DNA of 64,000 nt, taken from Sulfodiicoccus acidiphilus (GTDB taxonomy: Archaea; Thermoproteota; Thermoprotei_A; Sulfolobales; Sulfolobaceae). The stretch's first letter is position 1. Each line of letters opens with the position of its first letter. Where the stretch lies: the NCBI RefSeq assembly GCF_003967175.1, contig NZ_AP018553.1, positions 1,426,001 through 1,490,000 of the forward strand. Direction: 5' to 3'. The notes under the pieces are model-generated. The model made no database searches, was not told the DNA's origin, and saw only the letters and a list, made by a program, of their open reading frames with translations. The translations under genes were made by a program, and so were the position numbers. Shown here one piece after another: positions 6,518 to 49,597 of the stretch.

Positions 6518-6541
6518 AGACTCTGCAAGGGTGGGACATTG

Positions 6542-7516
6542 ATGATGTCTTCTAACGCTAGGAGCTTTGCAGTGTTTCTATTTCTTGTGGCGATTTCGTT
6601 GTGCTTCTCGCCTTTAGTTCCGGCAATTGTGGGGCAGTCTTCCTCTAACTGGGTAAAGCTAGTGTCTGTTTACGACGAGACAACCGGACAACGAGTTTCC
6701 AACGCGAGTCAACTCCTGGCTGGTGACACGTACAACGTCACGTTCGACGTCAACGTACCTTTCAGCGACCCATCAGCTTTCTACGTAGTTTCCATAGACC
6801 CTTCAATGGAGCTATACGGGAGTCAATTCTGGTACGTCCTCTCCCCCTCCTATCCTGGTTTCAACGTGTCCACCTTCGATCCCACACACACAGCGATTCG
6901 CTTCTCTCAGGTCCAGGGCACATTGGAGCTGGCCGCTGTCTTTACGGTACCGAATAACATAACGTACGTAGGGAACGAGCAAGGCGTTGTCATACAGAGG
7001 CCCCTCTACGGTGTGGACGTCATATCCGTACTTGCGGGGACGAGCATCGTCGGGTACTACTCGCCCGTCCTCGTGAGCTCTCAGATACTCCAGTATCAGC
7101 AACTCTACACGCAGGACTCCCTCCTCCTTTCTTCACACAAGGTTAACTCCCTTTACACGCCAGCCTACCAAGCCGTGATGGCTCAGGCCCAGTCGCTCTA
7201 TGGACAGGGTCTCGTCTCGCAGGCCATATCTACGCTCGAGCTCCTAAACTCGAGTAATTTCCCGCCCCCTCCCTCACCTCCCAGCGACGCTCTCCTTTTC
7301 GCCGGTTTCGGGGCGGCCGGGGCCCTAGCTGTAGTCGCGGTCGTAGCATTAGTTTTGTTCTCTAGAACTAGGTCTCGTGTCTCGGCCATGGAGTCCGCCA
7401 TAACCAGCGCGGCCAATCAACTCTCTTCCCTTAAGGCGACCCTCTCTTCTTACGATCAGCGATTGGCGGAAGAGGTCGATAGGTTGACAAAGAAGTTGAG
7501 GGAGGCGAAAGAATGA
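6542..7516 (+). CDS. Secreted-domain, single-pass membrane protein with cytosolic coiled coil (gene 1 of FtsZ-like cluster)
   Basis: I do not recognise a named family. An N-terminal signal-like hydrophobic stretch (about residues 8-30) is followed by a ~220-residue beta-rich, Ser/Thr/Tyr/Asn-rich domain, a Pro-rich hinge, one transmembrane helix near residues 250-275, and a charged tail that reads as a coiled coil. The topology would be: outside domain, one membrane pass, coiled coil in the cytosol. Its stop overlaps the ATG of the tubulin-like gene as ATGA, so translation is coupled. It could be the membrane anchor or receptor for that GTPase, but this is inferred from context only. Confidence 0.7.
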   Translation: MMSSNARSFAVFLFLVAISLCFSPLVPAIVGQSSSNWVKLVSVYDETTGQRVSNASQLLAGDTYNVTFDVNVPFSDPSAFYVVSIDPSMELYGSQFWYVLSPSYPGFNVSTFDPTHTAIRFSQVQGTLELAAVFTVPNNITYVGNEQGVVIQRPLYGVDVISVLAGTSIVGYYSPVLVSSQILQYQQLYTQDSLLLSSHKVNSLYTPAYQAVMAQAQSLYGQGLVSQAISTLELLNSSNFPPPPSPPSDALLFAGFGAAGALAVVAVVALVLFSRTRSRVSAMESAITSAANQLSSLKATLSSYDQRLAEEVDRLTKKLREAKE

Positions 7517-10169
7517 GCCAAGTCAACGAGAAGAGCGTAGGGAAGTACTCAGACGTCCACATAATAGGACTTGGTGGCACCGGTACTAACTTGATTCAGC
7601 GACTAATAGAGAGTCCCAGGTTACTACAACTCTTAGAATCGGAGGACTCCAACCTGTCACTCATGGCAATCGATGTAGCGGACGGTGACCTAGAAGCCCT
7701 CAACTTGGCCTATGAGAATGCCAAGAACAGATTGGTCAACGCAAGGATACTTGTGGACAGGCTCTACCTGAGGGCCCTCAAGGTGAGGTTCAACTCCCCC
7801 AACACCCTCTTCGAGTTTCTAAACAAACTAGACGGATACTTGGAGGGAGAGGGAATAAAGGTCGCTAACTATAGGCCGTGGATAAGTAGCATGATCCAGA
7901 TACCTCCCCTAGCGGGTGGAGTGGGGAGAATGAGGGCACTGAGCAAGGCGATATACAACTTGAATTTCTACTACTACAACGAATTGAGCTCTGCTTTAAG
8001 CCTTTTCGTGGACAGGGTGAAGCGCTCTGTGAGGCAGCCCATAGTGCTCATCGTTTTCGGCCTGGGAGGAGGTACGGGCAGCGGAATGGTGATGGACCTG
8101 GCCAGACACCTGAGGGTCAAACTGGGGAGCGCGGTTCCGATAATAGCCCTCGTCGTACTGCCCAGTTCTGCCGACGATCCGGTGGCCCGGGGAATATCGC
8201 CCTACACTGCCCTGCAGGAGTTCGAGCTTCTCTTCAACAACGAGCTTAACTCGAAGGTGGTGGAGACCTTCGGGAGGACCTATGTGAATCCTTTCACGGC
8301 CCTGTTCTTCCTCTCACTGGACCCGGTGTACAACCTGAAGAGCACACTGATCGAGGCAAAGGCCGACCTCGACGACGCGATAGTTGACTTGGTATACTCC
8401 ATGAGGTTCTTCGATTTGGCCGACTTGACGAGTAGAACCGGAACTAACAATGACTTCGGCAGGAACTGGGTTCACGCTGCAGGTTTCCTGAAGATAAGTT
8501 ACCCATTGGATCAGTACATCGCCTACATAAAGGGTCAATTGCAGACCCTCAAACTCCTCGGAGACTTCATGCTGGAGAAGGCGGAGATACTCGAGAGGGC
8601 GAGGAGGTTACTGGACTCGGAGTTTCAAGAGCTCAGGTGGATATACCAAACGTTCCTAGCGTCTCAGGGTCAGTTCAACCCTCAGACCTTCGAGGGAGAG
8701 CTGGACTCTGTGATAAGTAGGGGGGAAGGTATGAGACTCTCTTTAAGCAAGAGCTCAACGGCCTGAGGGACTTTTACTCCTACTACGTAGAGAAGTTCGC
8801 CAACGTGGTGAAGGGCCTAAGGTTCCCCGATGATACGAACGAAGGGGCAGTTGTAAGTGACGTCAATAGGTACCTCGATAAGGTGAGGAACTTATCCTCG
8901 ACCTACGAGGAGCTCTCAGTTGTCGACGTGAAGGACGTCCAAGAGAGGATATCCGCCGGGAGGAACTTCACGCCGTCCCAGATGGAGGCCCTGAATTCGA
9001 GTCTTAACTTCATTTCCTCCATAAGGAACGTAGTCACCGCCTTCCAACTGTACACCAGGACAAGGATATTGGCTGAGGAGCTGAGCAAGAGGCCCCTAAA
9101 CGAGGGTTCGAAGCAGAGGCTAGGGAAGGTCAACGAGAGGCTCAGGATACTGTACCCGCTCATGCAGGTGTTGACACACAAACCAGAGAACGAGGGGAAA
9201 TTGATAGACGACGTCGTCTTACAGGTGAGGACTACATTGAGGAACTCGGCCCAAGAGAGGCTCACCAACAAACAGAGGGAGGTGGACTTCCTGCGGGGCG
9301 AGGTAGACAGGTTGGCCAACGAGGCTGAGGAGTTCAGGAAGCAATTGAAGAAAGGACTCGGAATATTTTCCAATAAGAAACCGATACAAAGAAACTTGGA
9401 GTCCACTGAGGAAGAGCTGCATCAGAGACAGGGGCAACTCGAGCTCGCCTCAAGGGAGTTGGAGTTCGCTAAGACTTACAACGACTTAGTGGCCCAAGTC
9501 GTGGACAGGTTAGACGCGACCAAACCGTATAGGAAGGAACTCGCCCAAGTGGTCGCTAGGGAAAGGGAACTGAACAAGCTGCTCACCTCCGTCACCTCGA
9601 CCAGTAGGTTCTACGAGAAGATCGTAGAGTTGAGCGAGGAGGAGAGGGTCAGGATAATGGAGATGATACTTCAGGAAAGGGAAACCGAACTCAGAGAGCC
9701 AGGCACCCTCAGGGACATACTGAACATGGAGAGGTTCAAGAACATCCTGAGCAGTCACATGAAGGTCTTCAGCACTCCCTCCTACGTAGGATTCAACAAC
9801 GACTACAGGACGGACGTTATATGGGTCACTGTGAGTCTACCTGAGGGCATGTGGGACATGGACTTGCAGATGAGGCTCATGAACGTTCTCTCAGGCAACA
9901 TAAACGTTGAGGCGAGTAAGGCGGTTACAATAAAACAAATACCCCAGGTGGATCCTTGGACCATTTCCTTAACTGTGTTCTTCGCAAAGGGCAGGGCTGA
10001 AAACCTAGAGAAGTACCCATCAATGCAGAGGGACTCGCAGGTGGTGAGGCCGGGAGACAGGTACCTCTACAGGAGTTTCTTGCTGGAGCAGGGGGTGCAG
10101 GACGTGGAGGCGCTCGTGTCTCAGCTTCAGGGTGGAGAGGGTGAAAGGGAGGCCCAGCGTCAGGGATAG
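7513..10169 (+). CDS. Tubulin/FtsZ-superfamily GTPase (FtsZ-like, Tubulin_2 type), one frameshift
   Basis: The N-terminal ~400 residues form a tubulin/FtsZ-type GTPase: a first nucleotide loop GLGGTGTN at residues 19-26, a GGVGRMRALSKAIY segment near 135-148, and the tubulin signature GLGGGTGSG at 183-191. A long coiled coil rich in Glu, Arg and Leu follows, then a ~150-residue C-terminal domain. At about 885 residues it is far longer than FtsZ and closer to FtsZ-like families inferred to remodel membranes. The frame shifts once at the six-G run 8720-8725. One extra G would join the frames smoothly (reading ...YETLFKQELNGLRDFY), and the second frame stays fully coding. Most crenarchaea lack canonical FtsZ and divide with ESCRT/Cdv, so another role is likely. 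Confidence 0.8.
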
Positions 10170-12398
10170 GTTCGACTTAGTTACTGCGGACCTACTTTTG
10201 GCAATTTCCACCTTCGTTTACCTCCTCGAGGTCAAGTTCCTCCCTTTGGCCTCCTCTCTACCAGTAATAATACCGCTGGGCTCTTCCTACTTGGGCTCTA
10301 TAAGGGGTTAGGTAAAGCGGCGGCTTTGGAGGCCGCGATAGTCTTCTTCGCTCTCCTCTGGCAATCCTTGGGCTTCGGCCTAGCCACTTTGAACCTCTCT
10401 CAAGTTGTCCTTAACGTGACTTACCTCACCACTTCCCTCATATACCTCTCCCTCTTAACGTTCACTTCAGTTGCCGTATTCGGGGGACTCGTGGATCCGT
10501 TGCCTCTCTCCGCCGCCGTGTTGGCAGCAGCCCTGATGCTCACTCCCCTCTATTTCCTTTCTCCCGTTATGGTAGTCATACCACTCTTCCTTAGGTTACC
10601 TACAAGGTTGAGTACGACTGGATACCTCTTCTTCGCGCTCGTCACCCCCCTCATATTTCTAAACAATGCCATAGGGTACAGCTCCGGCGCACTTTCTGGG
10701 GCACCTCAGGTGTTCTCTAGGCTAACCTTTCTCTCCTCAACCATCAGGCCCGACTTAACTAGTCTGAACGTATTCCTCAGAGGGCTCCCCCCTAACTTCA
10801 TCTACCCTCACAACGTCCTGTTGGGTATGACCATATCACAGGCCCTCGGGCTACTCATTGGCATAGCTCTAGTGGGTGTGGCGTTCGCTATTACCGCAAG
10901 CGTGGGGAACTTAGTTAAATATGGACTAGACAAAATATACTTAGACGACGACTTCAGGAGGAAGCTTGACGTCCTCATGCCGGCGATCACCGGCGTGGTC
11001 GCGGTTGCGGTGTTTTGGTTGTTGGTAGTGGTCTTCTCCAGTCCGAGCGTCGGGGACTACTACACTTCCCTAACCAACAGTAGGGATGTAGGGTCCATGT
11101 TCTTGGGGGCGGTATTGGTGGGAGGAGCGTTCTCAGGCAGGGAATTGGCGATTCAGAGGCTGGAGGAGGTTGAGAGGGTGAGGAACTCACTTGTCGAGTC
11201 ACTTGAGTCACTGAGAAGAAACCTAGAAGAAGCACGTCGCGTCCTCTCAGAGGTCTCCTCAGCTCTCCCCTCAGTCGACTTGTCCGACGAGTCTAGGCGG
11301 ACAGAGCAGTGCAGCGAGTTCCTCGCCTCTGTGGAGGGAAAAGTGGAGAGCTCGGGTCTAGAAGTGCTGTTGAAGTGGACTCCAGTGGCTACCGACTGCC
11401 TCAGCTACGTTTCTGGTGTTGAGGGAAGGGTCAGGGAGAAGGTTATCAGGGACGTTTCGTACCTCCACTCACTCTCGGAGTCCCAGAACCTCACGCTGAG
11501 GAACTTGGGGGTAGGCCTGAGTATACCTTCTCCCGCCGAGATCTCCCCAGAGGCCAAGGTGGAGGACATATCAAAAGTATATGTGAAGTTCGTGGAGGAG
11601 CTGAGACGTTCTCTGAAGGAGCTATACTCGACGTACAGGGAGGTCGTCAAGGAATTCAATGCACTCATGGGCGAGGAGATCGCCCTTGTCCAGGGCCTTG
11701 CCCCCGAGTCCCTCTTAGACACTTATCAGTACGATGAAGCAATGAAGGTCGCTGTGGACTACTGGTTCAACTTCGAGGAAGCTCAGCGGGTTGACCTCAG
11801 TGTAGCCCTCGCTAGGCTTAGAGACGCAGCAAAACTACTGGCTACGGCCTCCCCGGAGGAGGGGGAAGAGATCGAGAAGCTCGCCGAAGAGGCGAAGGAC
11901 TTCACCCCCGTGAGGTCCCTGGAACTCAGTAGGAAGCTGCGGGAGATGCGGACCAAGTTGTTCGATCTGACGAAGAAGATCTGGGAGGACGTAGAAAGGA
12001 TCAACCAGATGGCATCTAGGGTAAAGTTGGACGTCGCTAGGATTCAGTTCAAGGTGAACCAGGAGGTGGAGGCGATCAACAGGGTACTCAAGGACGCGTC
12101 AAAGGAGAGACCGAGCATCGAGGAAGTGACCAACCTGATCAGGGAGTTGACGGAGTTGCTGAGGTTACACAGGGAGTTCCTCAAGGAGGACGAGCTTAAC
12201 GTGCTCAGACTCGCCCACTATTCGTTGGCGGAGAAAATAATGGACCAGATGATGGGAATGAAGGGAGAAGTAAGCTTGAAGGACCTGCCGTTCACAGACG
12301 ACGCAGCGTTTCTCTACATGAGGATCTACGCGGCCACCCATAACAACCTAGCCTTGGACGAACTCAAGGGCGTGATGTCAGTTGGGCAAGTGCGTTGA
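10141..12398 (+). CDS. Multi-pass membrane protein with long coiled-coil tail (gene 3 of FtsZ-like cluster), one frameshift
   Basis: Unrecognised family. The frame opens at GTG 10141, inside the end of the GTPase gene, reads about 50 hydrophobic residues, and shifts at the GGG run 10278-10280. One added G continues it as a hydrophobic segment into the next ~690 residues. The N-terminal ~300 residues hold about eight transmembrane segments. The remaining ~430 are charged and helical, with heptad-like Leu/Val and many Glu, Arg and Lys, predicted as a long cytosolic coiled coil. If no G is missing, translation could instead begin at TTG 10326. It overlaps the next gene. It is a plausible membrane partner that contacts the coiled coil of the GTPase. 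Confidence 0.65.
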
Positions 12399-13392
12399 AG
12401 GTCACGTCACCGAAGGACTGAAGTGTCAGTTGTGTGGTGCGCCCCTCGACTTCGCCTCGTCCATGGAAGACGTCCTGAAGGTTAAGCTCTCCCTCCCTTC
12501 ACCTCCCAAGTCACAGGCCATTTTGGTCGGAGTGGGTGGGAACGTCAGGGCCGAACACGTGAGTTACCTAGGGATAGGAGAGGAAAAAGTCTCTTACTCC
12601 TCACTGACGTTGCCCCTCGTAAAGGGTGGATTAGCCGACGATTACGAGAGGTCATACAAGGAGACCTTGAGGAGGTATTTAGATGGACTGCAGTTCTTCT
12701 CCAGTCCAGCTAGACTCGCCGTACTCGACTCCACGAACCTGCTGTCTCCCGCCGTAGGCTCCCTCTTGATTGACGTCCCAGCCATTGTTGTGATACCCAC
12801 TCCTGACTCGTCTACCTTGGAGCTTAGCACCTCATACCTGACCCTCAACGTGCTTGACCGTTCCCAGATTCCTGCGCTGTTGGTGAGGAGGGACGTCATC
12901 GAAGACTCCACGGGTTACGTTCATGGAGTGGGAGTGGTGAACGGGATGGAACTGCTGAGTTCTCTGGCCAGTCTGGTATTGTCCTCCTACGAGGAAATCT
13001 GGGACTTCATGCAACTCAACTCCAAGCTCGGAGTGCGTACTTACGCCTTGACATGGGTTCTAGGAGGATCTGACTTAGTGTTCGGATCGCCCTTAAACGC
13101 CATGAGGGCTTCCACTTTCGTTAGGTCGGTCCAATTCCTCGAAGAGGAAGTGGAGAGTTTGGCACTCGCGGGTAGGGTGGACAAGAACCAAGTGGAGAGT
13201 GTCGAGCGTTCGTTCAGGGAACTTGTGAGGGACGGATTCAAGGGGAAACTTTCAACGACAAAGGTAATGTTAACGTCAACTGAGAGCTCCGTCTACGATC
13301 TCCTCTTAATGTACGGGGTAAAGGGCGTCGTGGGGCTAGAGGTTCTCGAGGCCGCTCACAACAAACTGCAGTCGAGGGCGGAGGCGAGATGA
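12382..13392 (+). CDS. Zinc-ribbon protein with possible degenerate FtsZ fold (gene 4 of FtsZ-like cluster)
   Basis: The first 20 residues hold a zinc-ribbon-like pattern, C4-x3-H8-x6-C15-x2-C18. The remaining ~315 residues read as alternating beta strands and helices: an early ILVGVGGNV, a mid LAVLDSTNLLS and IVVIPTPDSS, then VGVVNGMELLSSL. To my eye the order recalls the tubulin/FtsZ domain (a glycine loop, strand, helix, then the NN-type motif and activation domain), but the GGGTGTG signature is missing. I offer that as a weak structural guess. TTG at 12382 is used because the zinc motif begins there; the start lies 17 nt inside the upstream gene, so translation is coupled. Confidence 0.6.
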   Translation: MGKCVEGHVTEGLKCQLCGAPLDFASSMEDVLKVKLSLPSPPKSQAILVGVGGNVRAEHVSYLGIGEEKVSYSSLTLPLVKGGLADDYERSYKETLRRYLDGLQFFSSPARLAVLDSTNLLSPAVGSLLIDVPAIVVIPTPDSSTLELSTSYLTLNVLDRSQIPALLVRRDVIEDSTGYVHGVGVVNGMELLSSLASLVLSSYEEIWDFMQLNSKLGVRTYALTWVLGGSDLVFGSPLNAMRASTFVRSVQFLEEEVESLALAGRVDKNQVESVERSFRELVRDGFKGKLSTTKVMLTSTESSVYDLLLMYGVKGVVGLEVLEAAHNKLQSRAEAR

Positions 13393-14120
13393 AGGTCACA
13401 GTGGAAGGAAGGGAAGGGGACGACTGTATAGTGGAAATAGAGGGAGGGGAACTAATCGCGACTTGTCAGAAGAGGTCCACGTTCAGAAAGGTCAGAGAGC
13501 AGATCCTCAGGGTTAAGGTCGACCCCCAGCTCAACGCGGTGTGGGAAGGAGGAAAGGTAATTGTCAATGGCGTCACCCTAGTCGGCGATCAGGCCGAGAT
13601 GGTAGAGCTCTGGAAAAGACTTAGGGGACCGAAACTAGCGAGTCTCCTAGACATGGCAAAGGAACCTGTAGCCCAGTTCCTCTCATCCAGACTCCTCGTT
13701 ATAGTCGAGGCGAAGAAGACCCTCGAAGATCCAGACAGGAGAGTCGCGTTCTTCTTGAGGCGTGGAGAACCTCTCCGAGAATTGAGTTCTCAGGTGGAGC
13801 AGGAGTTACGTCGAAGCTTAGGGCAACTGGAGGAGGTAATTGGCAGATCTGGGCTACTCCACGAGGAGTCCAGGCAGGTGTGGGCCGTTGCGTATCTGTG
13901 TTCCCTACTTCAGGATTATCTAATTGAGGGAAGGGATCCGTCGGAGATCTACTCGGCCCTCAGGCGTGAAGTGAGTACCTTCCAGGGAGTGGTTTCGAGG
14001 CCAGAGGAGGTGACAGACTTCGGGAGGAAGCTAATCGAGGCGGCATCGAAAAGCATTTCTACTACCTTTCACGGAATGAAGGACAGTAACGAAACAACTA
14101 CCACCTCGACTCAGGGATGA
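13389..14120 (+). CDS. Uncharacterised protein (gene 5 of FtsZ-like cluster)
   Basis: I do not recognise this protein (243 residues, soluble). The first ~80 residues look beta-rich and the rest mostly alpha-helical. A Thr/Ser-rich tail ends the protein. ATG overlaps the previous stop as ATGA, making it the last gene of the tightly overlapping cluster. Its position suggests a cytosolic accessory subunit of the tubulin-like system. No catalytic motif is visible. Confidence 0.65.
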   Translation: MKVTVEGREGDDCIVEIEGGELIATCQKRSTFRKVREQILRVKVDPQLNAVWEGGKVIVNGVTLVGDQAEMVELWKRLRGPKLASLLDMAKEPVAQFLSSRLLVIVEAKKTLEDPDRRVAFFLRRGEPLRELSSQVEQELRRSLGQLEEVIGRSGLLHEESRQVWAVAYLCSLLQDYLIEGRDPSEIYSALRREVSTFQGVVSRPEEVTDFGRKLIEAASKSISTTFHGMKDSNETTTTSTQG

Positions 14121-30243: not shown

Positions 30244-31223
30244 ATGGAAGTTGTGGTTCTTGGATGTAGAAAGTTCGGAAAGGTGCACCTCCGTGCCCTT
30301 TCGTCGCTCAAAGTCCCTTACAGTATAATGGAGAGGAACCCAGACGTTCTGAAGGACTGTGCGTCCACGTTCTCACCCCTAAGAACCTTCAGCTCTATCG
30401 ATGAAGTTCTAAGGTCTAACGCTGACGTGGTCGACGTGGTCTTGCCGCATAACTTGCACAGACAGGTCGTAGTGGAGGCGTTGAAAGCAGGGAAACACGT
30501 CCTGGTTGAGAAGCCCATAGCTACAACGGTTGAAGAAGGTGAGGACATGATCAAGGCATCTAAGGAGTATCGTAGAAAGTTCATGGTGGCGGAGCAGTAC
30601 TTCTTCGACCCGACCGTGAAGGCGGTATCCTCCATGATAAGGGAAGGTAAATTGGGTAAGGTCCACACCATCGTAGTTAGGGACCAGAGGTTTTACGACC
30701 ACACAGGGTGGAGGACAGATCCCACTGTAATGGGAGGAGGCGCGCTCATCGACGGTGGGATCCACTACGTCGACACTATCCTGAACTTCGGAGGGGACTA
30801 CGAGGGCCTGACTGCTTCGGTGAGCCACGTGGGGTCCACCCTCAAGGGGAGGACAACACGGTGGCATTCTTCAAGTTTAGGTCTGGGGCCGCTGGCGTAC
30901 TTCTATACTCTTGGGCCTACAGAGGGAATCCCGTTCTCCCAGGCTTCGAGGTCATAGGGGAAGAGGGAACTGTGTACGAGGACGTGACCACGAGGTCTCA
31001 GGCCGATTTCGTAGATCCGTCTAGGACGACCGCGTACGGTCTTCCCGTCCTCAATGGGAAGAAGGTGGAGGTGAAGACTTACGACGTCTTCCAGGAGGAG
31101 ATAGGCTCCTTCATCAGGGCTGTGGAGAGGGACGAGCCAGTTCCGATGCCACCCGAGTTGGCACTGAGGGACCTCAAGGCTGTGTTGGACGTCTACAGAA
31201 TTGCTGGGTACAGTCCGCGCTAA
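30244..31223 (+). CDS. Gfo/Idh/MocA-family NAD(P)-dependent oxidoreductase, one frameshift
   Basis: Sugar or sugar-derivative dehydrogenase. An N-terminal Rossmann fold (VVVLGCRKFGKVHLRAL) is followed by the family motif EKPIATT near residue 95 and a C-terminal substrate domain with GGGALIDGGIHYVD near 170. The frame shifts at the four-G run 30846-30849; one added G links KG to EDNTVAFFKF and gives a normal ~325-residue protein. TATA-like CTTAATTAAT at 30214 supports the ATG at 30244. The substrate is unknown. Confidence 0.8.
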
Positions 31224-35130: not shown

Positions 35131-36843
<1,713 letters not shown>

Positions 36844-39096: not shown

Positions 39097-40628
39097 ATGG
39101 AAGTCACCAAGCCCGTTGCGCTCAGCCTGAGCAAGGCCGAGTTCAAGGATATATACAGGATGGACGGGGTCCCAGAATTCAAGACCTACTTGGCCGGGGA
39201 GTGGTACTCCGGTACGGAGCTCATGGACGTCAGGAGCCCAATAGACTCTTCTATCTTCGCCAAGGTACCACGTGTCAACGGAGAGGTCGCCTCCAAGGTC
39301 CTTTCTTTGGCTTACTCAAAGGGAAGGAGGGAGATGAGGGACACACCTGGAGAGAAGAGGTTGGCCATATACCACAAGGTGGCGGACCTGTTGGAGGAGC
39401 TCAAGGACGACTTCGTGGATGTCCTGATCGTGAACAACGGAAAGACGAGGCAGGCCGCCCTAGGAGAGGTGGGAGCCTCGGTGGAAAGGTTGAGGAGGGC
39501 CGACCTAGACGTGAGGAAGCTCTACGGTGACTACGTCCCAGGAGACTGGAGCTCGGAGAGCCTACAGACCGAGGCCATAGTGAGGAGGGAGCCCTTGGGC
39601 CTAGTGCTCGCCATAACCCCCTTCAATTACCCCCTGTTCGATGTAGTCAACAAGTTCGTCTACACCACCGTGGCTGGGAACGCCATGTTACTTAAGCCCT
39701 CCACTTTGACTCCCCTGACCGCGATCATGTTCGCTCGGTTGCTCGAGTTGGCTGGGTTCCCGAGGACGGCCTTCGCAGTCCTAACCTCCCGTGGGTCCGA
39801 CGTCTCAGGAGTGGTTAGGGATCCCAGAGTCGAGGGTATAACCCTCACCGGAAGTACCGAGACTGGAGAGGCAATAATGAGGGAGGGCGGGATAAAGCAA
39901 TATGTCATGGAGCTGGGAGGTGGCGACCCAGCAATAGTCCTTGCTGACGCTGACGTGAACTGGGCGGCCCAGAGGATAGTGGCCGGAATAACCAGCTACT
40001 CTGGCCAGAGGTGCGATTCCGTGAAGCTAGTGTTGGCGGAGCCCCAAGTTTACGACCAACTGAAGGCCAAGTTGTTGGAGGAGCTCTCAAAGGTGAGAGT
40101 CGGTGACCCTAGAGATCCAGATGTAACTATGGGGCCTGTGATCGAGGAGTCTACAGTCGACGAGTTGGAACAGGGAGTTAAGGACGCCGTCTCAAAGGGT
40201 GCGAAAGTCATCTTCGGGGTAGGAGACTTGGGCGTCACTACGTCGAACCTACCCTAATTGAAGTGGAAAGGGAGAGGATAGGCGACCTCTACCTGTACAA
40301 CAAGGAGGTCTTCCTCTCGGTTGCCCTCCTCACTAAGGTGAGGGACGAAGTGGATGCCGTCGCGGTCTCGAACGGGAGAAGGTACGGCCTGGACGCAGCG
40401 GTCTTCGGGAACGACATGACGCGGGTGAGGAGGGTGATAAGGCAGTTGGAGGTGGGCGCCGTCTACGTCAACGACTACCCTAGGCACGGCATAGGGTACT
40501 TCCCCTTCGGAGGGAGGAAGGGATCTGGGGTTGCCCGGGAGGGAATAGGCTATACCATAGAGTACGTCACAGCCTATAAGACGGTCATGTACAACTACAG
40601 GGGAAAGGGTGTGTGGGAGTACCTCTAA
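39097..40628 (+). CDS. gapN: Non-phosphorylating glyceraldehyde-3-phosphate dehydrogenase, one frameshift
   Basis: Aldehyde dehydrogenase oxidising GAP directly to 3-phosphoglycerate, the lower glycolytic step in Sulfolobales. Active-site residues: general base E272 in MELGGGDP and nucleophile C306 in SGQRCDSVK, a sequence typical of archaeal GAPN. The frame breaks at the GGG 40230-40232; a fourth G continues as [15 protein letters not shown] into 40263-40628, restoring a ~510-residue enzyme. It completes the kdgA-kdgK-gapN set. Confidence 0.9.
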
Positions 40629-47432: not shown

Positions 47433-49597
47433 ATGCGTTACGTCGGGAAGCCACTTAAGAGGGTGGTCGAGGACGTTCCATTGATAACGGGCAGGGCCAC
47501 ATTCGTTTACGACATCACCCTGCCGTCCACACTCCACGCAGTTTTCCTCAGGAGCCAGTACGCTCATGCCAAGTTCAAGGTTCACTGCAGAGGCCTCTGT
47601 TACACTGCGGAGGACCTACCAGTTAAGGTGGGTTTAGCAGAACGAGAAGCCGTTTACGTGGGGCAACCCCTCGCCGTGGTCCTCGCTGAGGACGAGTACA
47701 CCGCTAGGGACCTGGTCTCGTCGATCGAGGTGGAGTACGACCCGTTGCCAGCGGTGGTCGATCCAATTAAGGCCACCGAGGAGTCTTCGCCGAAGGCTAG
47801 GTCCGACCTCAAGTCGAACGTGTTCAGAGAGGAGAGGGTAGAGGCAGGTGACGTAGGGGTGGCCCTCAGGAGGGCTCACGCCGTAGTGGAGGGAACGTTG
47901 CTCAACCAGAGGCTCATACCCAGCGCAATGGAAATGAGGGGGGCTGTGGCGTCGTACGATGGGAACAGGCTTACAGTGTGGTCGAGCACCCAGAGCGCCT
48001 TCTTCGTCAAGAAGGCCGTTCAAGGTCTCGTCTCCAAGCTCGGGTCAGGAGCGTCAGAGCCGTCCAGCCTGCGGTCGGAGGGGCCTTCGGTAGTAAGTTA
48101 ATGACTTACCCGGAGGAGTTGGCTGTGAGCGCTTTGGCGGTGTTGACCAAGAGGCCGGTGAAGTGGTTCAACACCAGGGCCGAGGACATGGCCTCCACGA
48201 ACCAAGGGAGGGACATGATCTTGAAGTTCAGAGCAGGGGTGGATAGACAAGGAAGGATCTTGGGAATAGAGGGAACACTCTACTTCGACGCAGGTGCACC
48301 AATCGCCGAAGTGAACGAGAGCGCCTTCGGTATGGCCTCGACCGCAGCAAGGATGATAACTGGGCACTACGACATAGGGAACGTCAACGTAAGGGTCCTC
48401 GGTGTTAACACCAATAAGACGGTCATAGAGGCCTACAGGGGGGCTGGGAGGCCAGAGGGATCCTACTTCATAGAACGCATAGTGAACCTGGCGGCCAGGA
48501 AGGTCGGCGTCGATCAGTTCGAGATAAGGCAGCTCAACTCCCTGAAGGAGGCTAACCAGTACAGGACTCCCACTGGGATGACCCACGATAGCGGAAGGTA
48601 CTGGGAAGCGTTAGAGAGGGCGAAGCCGGCCTACTTGGAGTTGAGGCGCAAGAGGGACGAGATGAGATCGAGGGGAGAGACGGCTGGGGTGGGAGTTGCC
48701 TTCCCAGCGGAGATCGCCTCCTTCGGTCCCTACGAGACGGCCAAGGTCAAATTGACGTCTGGAGGGAAAGTGCAGGTGGTGAGCGGCTCTGGGCCCCACG
48801 GTCAAGGTGACGGAACCGCCTTCGCCATGATCGCAGCCGACGTGTTCGAGGTAGATCCTAGTCAGGTCGAGGTGCTCTGGGGCGACACCGACCTCATAGC
48901 GGACGGGCAGTACACCGCCGGGAGCCGGACTGTTGCGATCGGAGGAGCTGCGGTGTACGAAGCCTCCCTGAGACTGAAGGAGAGACTTGCCAAGACGGCG
49001 GCGGAAGCTATGGGTGTGGATGTGGCTCAATTGGAGTACTCGGAGGGCAAGTTCAGGAGGAAAGGCGACGGTGACTCCATGGATCTCTCTAGGCTCTTCG
49101 ACGCATCCCTCTCCATGGGGGTGGTTCCAGAGGAGTCCTACTCCTACGTCCAGAAACTCTACTACTCACCTTACGGAGTTCACCTAGCTCTCGTGAAGGT
49201 GGATCGGGAGACGGGAGAAGTGAGGGTGCTCGACTACAGGGCCTTCGACGACGTGGGAACTGTTGTGAATCCACTCACTACGGAAGGACAGGTCCACGGG
49301 GCAGTCCTACAAGGTGTGGGCCAGGCCCTTTATGAGGCGGCCATTTACGGAGACGACGGCTCACTCCTATCCACCGACTTCCTTTCTTACCACGTCCCGC
49401 GCCCCAAGGACTACGTCAGGGTGTTGTGGACTTCTTTGGGCCTAGCTAAGTCCGACAACCCACTGGGGGCCAAGGGGATAGGAGAGTTAGGTACCATAGC
49501 AGCAACTCCTGCAGTGGTCAACGCGGTGGAGGATGCCCTAAATAGAGAACTCTTGACCATGCCCCTTACCCCAGAGGTAGTCGTGAGACACCTGTGA
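47433..49597 (+). CDS. Molybdenum hydroxylase large subunit (CO/aldehyde dehydrogenase, xanthine dehydrogenase family), one frameshift
   Basis: Moco-binding subunit of ~720 residues. Motifs: VGQPLAVVLAE in the N-terminal hammerhead domain, VGGAFGSK, EAYRGAGRPEGSY for Moco contact, GSGPHGQGDGT, and the catalytic Glu in GAKGIGELG. The frame shifts at the GGG 48042-48044; one more G reads SKLGVRSVRAVQPAVGG and restores a full-length protein. Sulfolobales use such enzymes as glyceraldehyde or CO dehydrogenases. No medium (FAD) or small (2Fe-2S) subunit gene is adjacent, so partners must be elsewhere. Confidence 0.88.

Follow-up and report, generated by a model that had tools for sequence, protein, structure and literature searches.

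The window analysed here is a stretch of 64,000 nucleotides from the genome of Sulfodiicoccus acidiphilus (NZ_AP018553.1, positions 1,426,001 to 1,490,000 of the forward strand), and the present study concerns a group of five genes close to its beginning, the second of which encodes a tubulin-like GTPase. All five genes lie on the + strand between 6539/6542 and 14120 (table 1), where a first-pass annotation made from the letters alone had placed them. Overlaps of 4 base pairs (bp), 17 bp and 4 bp were found between genes 1 and 2, 3 and 4, and 4 and 5, respectively, and in a related genome (L006) the successive junctions of the five genes overlap by 4, 23, 14 and 17 bp.

Table 1. Features of the five-gene group, in coordinates of the window (residue numbers where indicated; aa, amino acids; TM, transmembrane segment).
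Feature	Position	Strand	Description
Gene 1	6539..7516	+	325 aa from TTG 6539; alternative ATG 6542
Gene 1 domains			N-terminal signal/TM; extracytoplasmic part, residues ~33-246; TM ~256-274; conserved cytosolic helical tail 277-325
Gene 2, N-terminal part	7513..8766	+	Tubulin_2/FtsZl1 GTPase domain with T1 GLGGTGTN, T4 GLGGGTGSG and T7 FDLAD
Gene 2, frame-change site (6-G run)	8720..8725	+	One G fewer than in the reading of the orthologues
Gene 2, C-terminal part, other frame	8727..10169	+	Helical coiled-coil arm and C-terminal alpha/beta domain
Gene 3, N-terminal coding segment	10132..10303	+	Start codon not fixed; overlaps the end of gene 2
Gene 3, frame-change site (4-G run)	10304..10307	+	
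Gene 3, remainder	10308..12398	+	Polytopic membrane protein, long cytosolic helical region, conserved C-terminal domain
Gene 4	12382..13392	+	Zinc-ribbon-like CxxxH...CxxC (residues 4-18), then tubulin-superfamily fold lacking T1/T4 nucleotide motifs
Gene 5	13389..14120	+	243 aa; N-terminal beta-rich segment (by eye), C-terminal helices; putative partner

Gene 1 had been described as membrane-anchored, and a signal or transmembrane segment and a cytosolic helix are indeed present. Its cytosolic tail is slightly better conserved (pairwise identity 0.28–0.31) than its ectodomain (0.25). Likewise, the multi-pass membrane protein with a coiled coil predicted for gene 3 was recognized by its several transmembrane segments and long helical region. 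Sequence-profile comparison of genes 1 and 5 gave no convincing known fold.

The product of gene 2 matched the Pfam family Tubulin_2 (PF13809; E = 1.2e-16, 61.3 bits against a curated cut-off of 27) as well as Tubulin (PF00091, E = 1.8e-8). It is not a canonical FtsZ, as the TIGR00065 equivalog model scored 22.7 bits against a cut-off of 295.2. Both glycine motifs of the first-pass annotation, GLGGTGTN and GLGGGTGSG, are present. In an alignment of 27 orthologues the T1, T4 and T7 loops are kept, truncated rows aside, with the GGGTGSG of T4 invariant. At the T7 position an [N]xD[LMI]AD motif is found, whose residues D295 and D298 are invariant in 27/27 sequences; the catalytic consensus applied to this loop is the generally known one.

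A structural model of an orthologue (L041; predicted local distance difference test score, pLDDT, 87.6; predicted template modelling score, pTM, 0.78) showed the tubulin fold that would be required of such a GTPase. All 32 matches in the PDB at E<=0.001 were to CetZ, TubZ or FtsZ. In this model the GTPase domain is followed by the core helix, H8, strand S7, near-continuous helices at residues 326–695 and a beta-alpha-beta-beta unit at 770–827, the C-terminal region consisting of helices and the strands 770–775, 805–810 and 817–827. The arm after S7 is thus about 370 residues long, an extended central coiled coil as in FtsZl1. By the order of its elements, and not by superposed coordinates, the unit 770–827 can be read as S8-H10-S9-S10, which would place the arm as an insertion between S7 and S8.

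The proposed layout of GTPase domain, coiled coil and C-terminal domain therefore stands for the protein, but as deposited it is split over two frames. The GTPase domain is encoded in a frame that ends at 8766, and what follows, coiled coil and C-terminus, in another; the joined reading (...VISRGGRYETLFKQEL...) aligns with the orthologues through the frame junction, and the C-terminal part shares 40% identity with residues 428–879 of gene 2 of L006. Similarly, the frame of gene 3 that begins at 10132 aligns with the N-termini of gene 3 in L006 and L007. These two genomes, for which "Saccharolobus-type" is used here as a working label, carry both genes as intact single open reading frames (ORFs) of 882 aa (gene 2) and 737 aa (gene 3); their gene 4 orthologue has 343 aa.

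Since the 2,353,189 bp genome of S. acidiphilus HS-1T was assembled by HGAP from PacBio reads alone (PMC6647314), indel errors in genes 2 and 3 are plausible. The two frameshifts within one operon, and the patchy presence of the operon within the family, could also mean that it is decaying in S. acidiphilus, with genes 2 and 3 as pseudogenes and the whole module inactive. This is considered unlikely, because each shift comes down to one base at a G run, in an assembly made from PacBio reads only, because the reading of both genes resumes past the shift without further stops, and because several unrelated ORFs of the window also look split. Sequencing error is thus the more likely, if unproven, cause. 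The sequence AGG GGG G at 8719–8725 would permit a frame-restoring -1 slip, and a programmed frameshift at the G6 run could in principle yield full-length gene 2; the orthologues of gene 2 are single ORFs and the same type of defect occurs in gene 3, which leaves this explanation with a very slight chance.

Seemingly split ORFs elsewhere in the window lie at 30244–31223, 35477–36843, 39097–40628 and 47433–49597, and were named by eye as Gfo/Idh-like, ammonium transporter, aldehyde dehydrogenase and molybdopterin oxidase large subunit. Their occurrence suggests indel errors across the PacBio-only assembly.

Gene 4 had been annotated as a zinc-ribbon protein. The CxxxH...CxxC motif is present, but the body of the protein, which had been overlooked, was predicted by AlphaFold to adopt a tubulin fold (pLDDT 92.1, pTM 0.85). 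In a Foldseek comparison with the PDB, 50/50 matches listed were tubulin, FtsZ, CetZ or TubZ, the best being Methanosaeta CetZ (E = 3e-11, probability 1.00; TM-scores to CetZ 0.55–0.62). Sequence profiles agreed: a profile of 26 gene 4 members found CetZ at 1.6e-5 and 1e-4, and aligned in register with gene 2 around T4 (E = 5e-5), a relationship detectable by hhalign only with the 26 sequences, as a small alignment gave nothing. One member reached PF00091 at 0.0055. None of the 26 aligned members has intact T1 and T4 glycine loops, these being degenerate or absent; close to the T7 position, 20/26 retain an acid (residue 208 in the window protein). On the basis of these models and profiles, gene 4 is predicted to be a tubulin-superfamily fold without nucleotide loops of its own. 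That gene 4 is a zinc ribbon alone was ruled out, since the ribbon is missing in many orthologues in which the tubulin-fold body persists.

The close, window-type form of gene 2 (class I) was found in only 3/31 genomes of the host family. Any PF13809 protein, whether class I, the SSO1376-like type II or a diverged form, occurred in 15/229 genomes of the class. A scan of named genomes detected 36 class I loci, mostly in metagenome-assembled genomes (MAGs) of Bathyarchaeota, the others being one labelled Nitrososphaerales and loci of Desulfurococcales/Pyrodictiaceae, some of which are the same contigs as in the search of 229 genomes. No relatives were found among viral contigs, and a viral origin was rejected.

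One of the diverged PF13809 forms is a second copy in the genome of S. acidiphilus itself (L036 9015–11960, at about 1,896,000 of C1), a protein of 981 aa which falls below the Pfam cut-off. It is followed by ORFs of 339, 642 and 270 aa, among which no partner common to the window operon was detected.

The five genes were found together in the Saccharolobus-type relatives, in Pyrodictiaceae/Desulfurococcales and in about 25 Bathyarchaeota MAGs. Counting the 36 class I loci, the window and three relatives, gene 1 adjoins gene 2 at all 39 loci having upstream sequence, and genes 3 and 4 lie near gene 2 at 31 of the 33 with adequate downstream sequence. Many of these neighbourhood sequences were also seeds of the models, so that E-values are inflated; members that were not seeds still match strongly. 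The order is 1-2-3-4-5 in the group of the window and 1-2-4-3-5, with gene 4 usually inverted, elsewhere. Profile comparison (hhalign) connects genes 1, 2, 3 and 4 across the deep groups, gene 3 of the window being homologous to all gene 3 groups, and gene 5 falls into several groups which are only partly linked in this way. One genome (G047) has genes 1 and 2 on one contig and genes 3, 4 and 5 on another.

Of the 229 genomes, the nine with class I gene 2, and no others, contain gene 4 (Fisher 2.5e-16, a value that ignores relatedness). In a sample of 398 genomes of the phylum, strong gene 4 matches were obtained in 19/20 genomes with long gene 2 matches (the exception being G245), and two other genomes gave only weak matches to gene 4, near 3e-4 to 5e-4. 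The clustering conserved over several archaeal lineages supports the earlier proposal that the five genes form a joint unit, and orthologues scattered over the genomes of relatives, which would have spoken against it, were not observed. Carriers are rare in the Sulfolobales, and the module is spread far more widely outside that order.

Two other arrangements were noted. In Bathycorpusculum hydrogenotrophicum (L062 12869–17613) gene 4 lies about 4 kb from gene 2 and no gene 3 adjoins gene 2, indicating a rearranged cluster. Four loci from genomes of another family (L120 4810–8881, L121 8929–13087, L122 6560–10007 and L123 8628–12650) carry a conserved triad of a gene 3-like protein (profile 5e-22), a gene 5-like protein (5.6e-6) and a possible but unproven gene 4-like protein, and no tubulin GTPase was detectable in these genomes; this triad is perhaps a tubulin-less derivative.

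In a tree of gene 2, the window sequence grouped with the two Saccharolobus-type genes (support 100/99) and next with G047 (88/88), after which the MAGs JOPF037, FK4.bin31 and RBG_13_52_12 joined. The Pyrodictiaceae/Desulfurococcales genes formed a separate clade. The topology fits transfer as well as ancient duplication, long branches and binning errors of MAGs limiting the inference.

Taken together, these results make it fairly probable that the products of the five genes form a single cytoskeletal machine attached to the membrane, which has two tubulin-superfamily proteins as its basis and serves to shape the membrane or envelope and not to divide the cell. As gene 2 retains the T1 and T4 loops and the catalytic acids of T7, it would be expected to form head-to-tail assemblies in which GTP is hydrolysed at the contacts between subunits. 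Gene 4 would probably bind one end of gene 2, either as an obligate, non-exchanging partner or as a cap. The polymer may be tethered to the membrane by gene 3, with several transmembrane segments and cytosolic helices, and by gene 1, with an extracytoplasmic domain, one transmembrane segment and a cytosolic helix; these two proteins could also couple it to the cell surface, and gene 5 may act as an adaptor. Attachment to the membrane, already proposed in the first-pass annotation, is supported, like the tubulin-like GTPase and the joint unit, by the Tubulin_2 match, the predicted tubulin fold and the conserved clustering; the filament and the complex remain inference. A more specific picture is put forward tentatively: an asymmetric polymer of an active, coiled-coil-armed GTPase and a nucleotide-free pseudo-tubulin, forming an obligate pair or a capped filament on the membrane, coupled to the cell surface by a transmembrane protein, as a cytoskeleton common to Bathyarchaeia and scattered Thermoproteia.

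Several observations weigh against the proposed machine. As deposited, the S. acidiphilus sequence has frameshifts in both gene 2 and gene 3, the TM-scores of gene 4 in the PDB are moderate (0.46–0.61), and its zinc-ribbon-like N-terminus is confined, among the aligned members, to the window, L006, L007, L043 and L042. The co-occurrence p-values carry the relatedness problem mentioned above. Moreover, one other family has genes 3 and 5 without a detectable GTPase, so parts of the module may work without polymerisation.

Membership of the tubulin superfamily, and the fact that no canonical FtsZ was found in the S. acidiphilus genome, would also fit an alternative or auxiliary apparatus for cell division. 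Such a role is very improbable: the genome has three CdvB-like genes, window-type gene 2 is missing from 28/31 genomes of the family, and at least three module carriers in family f17 have a separate ORF of 358–369 aa, a weak match of FtsZ size. Membrane or envelope shaping is the most plausible guess at the function of the module.

FtsZl1 has been known in Sulfolobales since 2010, from two members of the order (PMC2875224; PMC9723716), and S. solfataricus SSO1376 is a transposon-disrupted FtsZl1 (PMC2875224). Window-type gene 2 resembles FtsZl1 in having a tubulin-type GTP-binding domain at the N-terminus, an extended coiled coil, a further domain at the C-terminus and membrane proteins as neighbours. 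Makarova and Koonin (2010) were unable to locate T6-H7 in FtsZl1 with confidence (PMC2875224), whereas T7 is identifiable and conserved in the window type, its C-terminal region contains strands, and the module includes a second tubulin-fold partner. In relatives, proteins of the SSO1376-like type II share only ~21–26% identity with gene 2, over part of the protein, and orthology of genes 3, 4 and 5 with their partners was not detected by profile comparison.

The type II loci themselves (L008, L009, L032, L029) encode a GTPase of ~1050 aa with N-terminal transmembrane segments, which in L008, L009 and L032 is followed by a protein of 750–830 aa with 3–4 such segments and one of ~263 aa. Two insertions interrupt the L032 locus, and the copy in L009 is split; the genus of the Saccharolobus-type genomes also has the disrupted SSO1376-like locus.

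It could be argued that the module is an ordinary FtsZl1 membrane-remodelling system of the kind proposed in 2010, with lineage-specific membrane partners and with gene 4 as a structural relic or a regulator outside the polymer. Gene 2 clearly belongs to PF13809, and unknown membrane proteins are often encoded in FtsZl1 operons (PMC2875224). This explanation is regarded as rather unlikely, since gene 4, with its conserved tubulin fold, co-occurs with gene 2 with hardly an exception, and the FtsZl1-operon partners vWA, protein kinase, P-loop GTPase and OmpA gave no Pfam match in the five genes and the four flanking genes scanned.

The closest solved fold to gene 4 is CetZ (Haloferax, Methanosaeta), of which CetZ1 is a cell-shape cytoskeleton protein; unlike CetZ, gene 4 is without the T1/T4 nucleotide motifs and shares its operon with membrane proteins. 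The use of two tubulin-superfamily members together recalls BtubA/B, alpha/beta-tubulin and FtsZ1/FtsZ2, but in this module a nucleotide site can be recognised in one partner only, which also bears a long helical arm, and a heteropolymer would be hypothetical. TubZ, also a GTPase with the tubulin fold and one of the PDB matches to gene 2, forms segregation filaments of plasmids and phages, in contrast to a module of cellular genomes with membrane partners and without relatives on viral contigs. A literature search, with the 2010 Nature Reviews Microbiology paper, preprints and supplements outside its scope, turned up nothing on the five-gene module, on its spread in Bathyarchaeia or on the pseudo-tubulin partner.

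FtsZl1 is a predicted membrane-remodelling GTPase, so far without described partners in Crenarchaeota, and the 2010 study left open whether it polymerises in the usual way (PMC2875224). The present results add a fixed five-gene context, a recognisable catalytic T7 loop and a conserved tubulin-fold partner without nucleotide loops. The assembly and function of FtsZl1 thereby become testable in culturable thermoacidophiles, some relatives being genetically tractable, and the two-tubulin module bears on the origin of two-subunit tubulin polymers.

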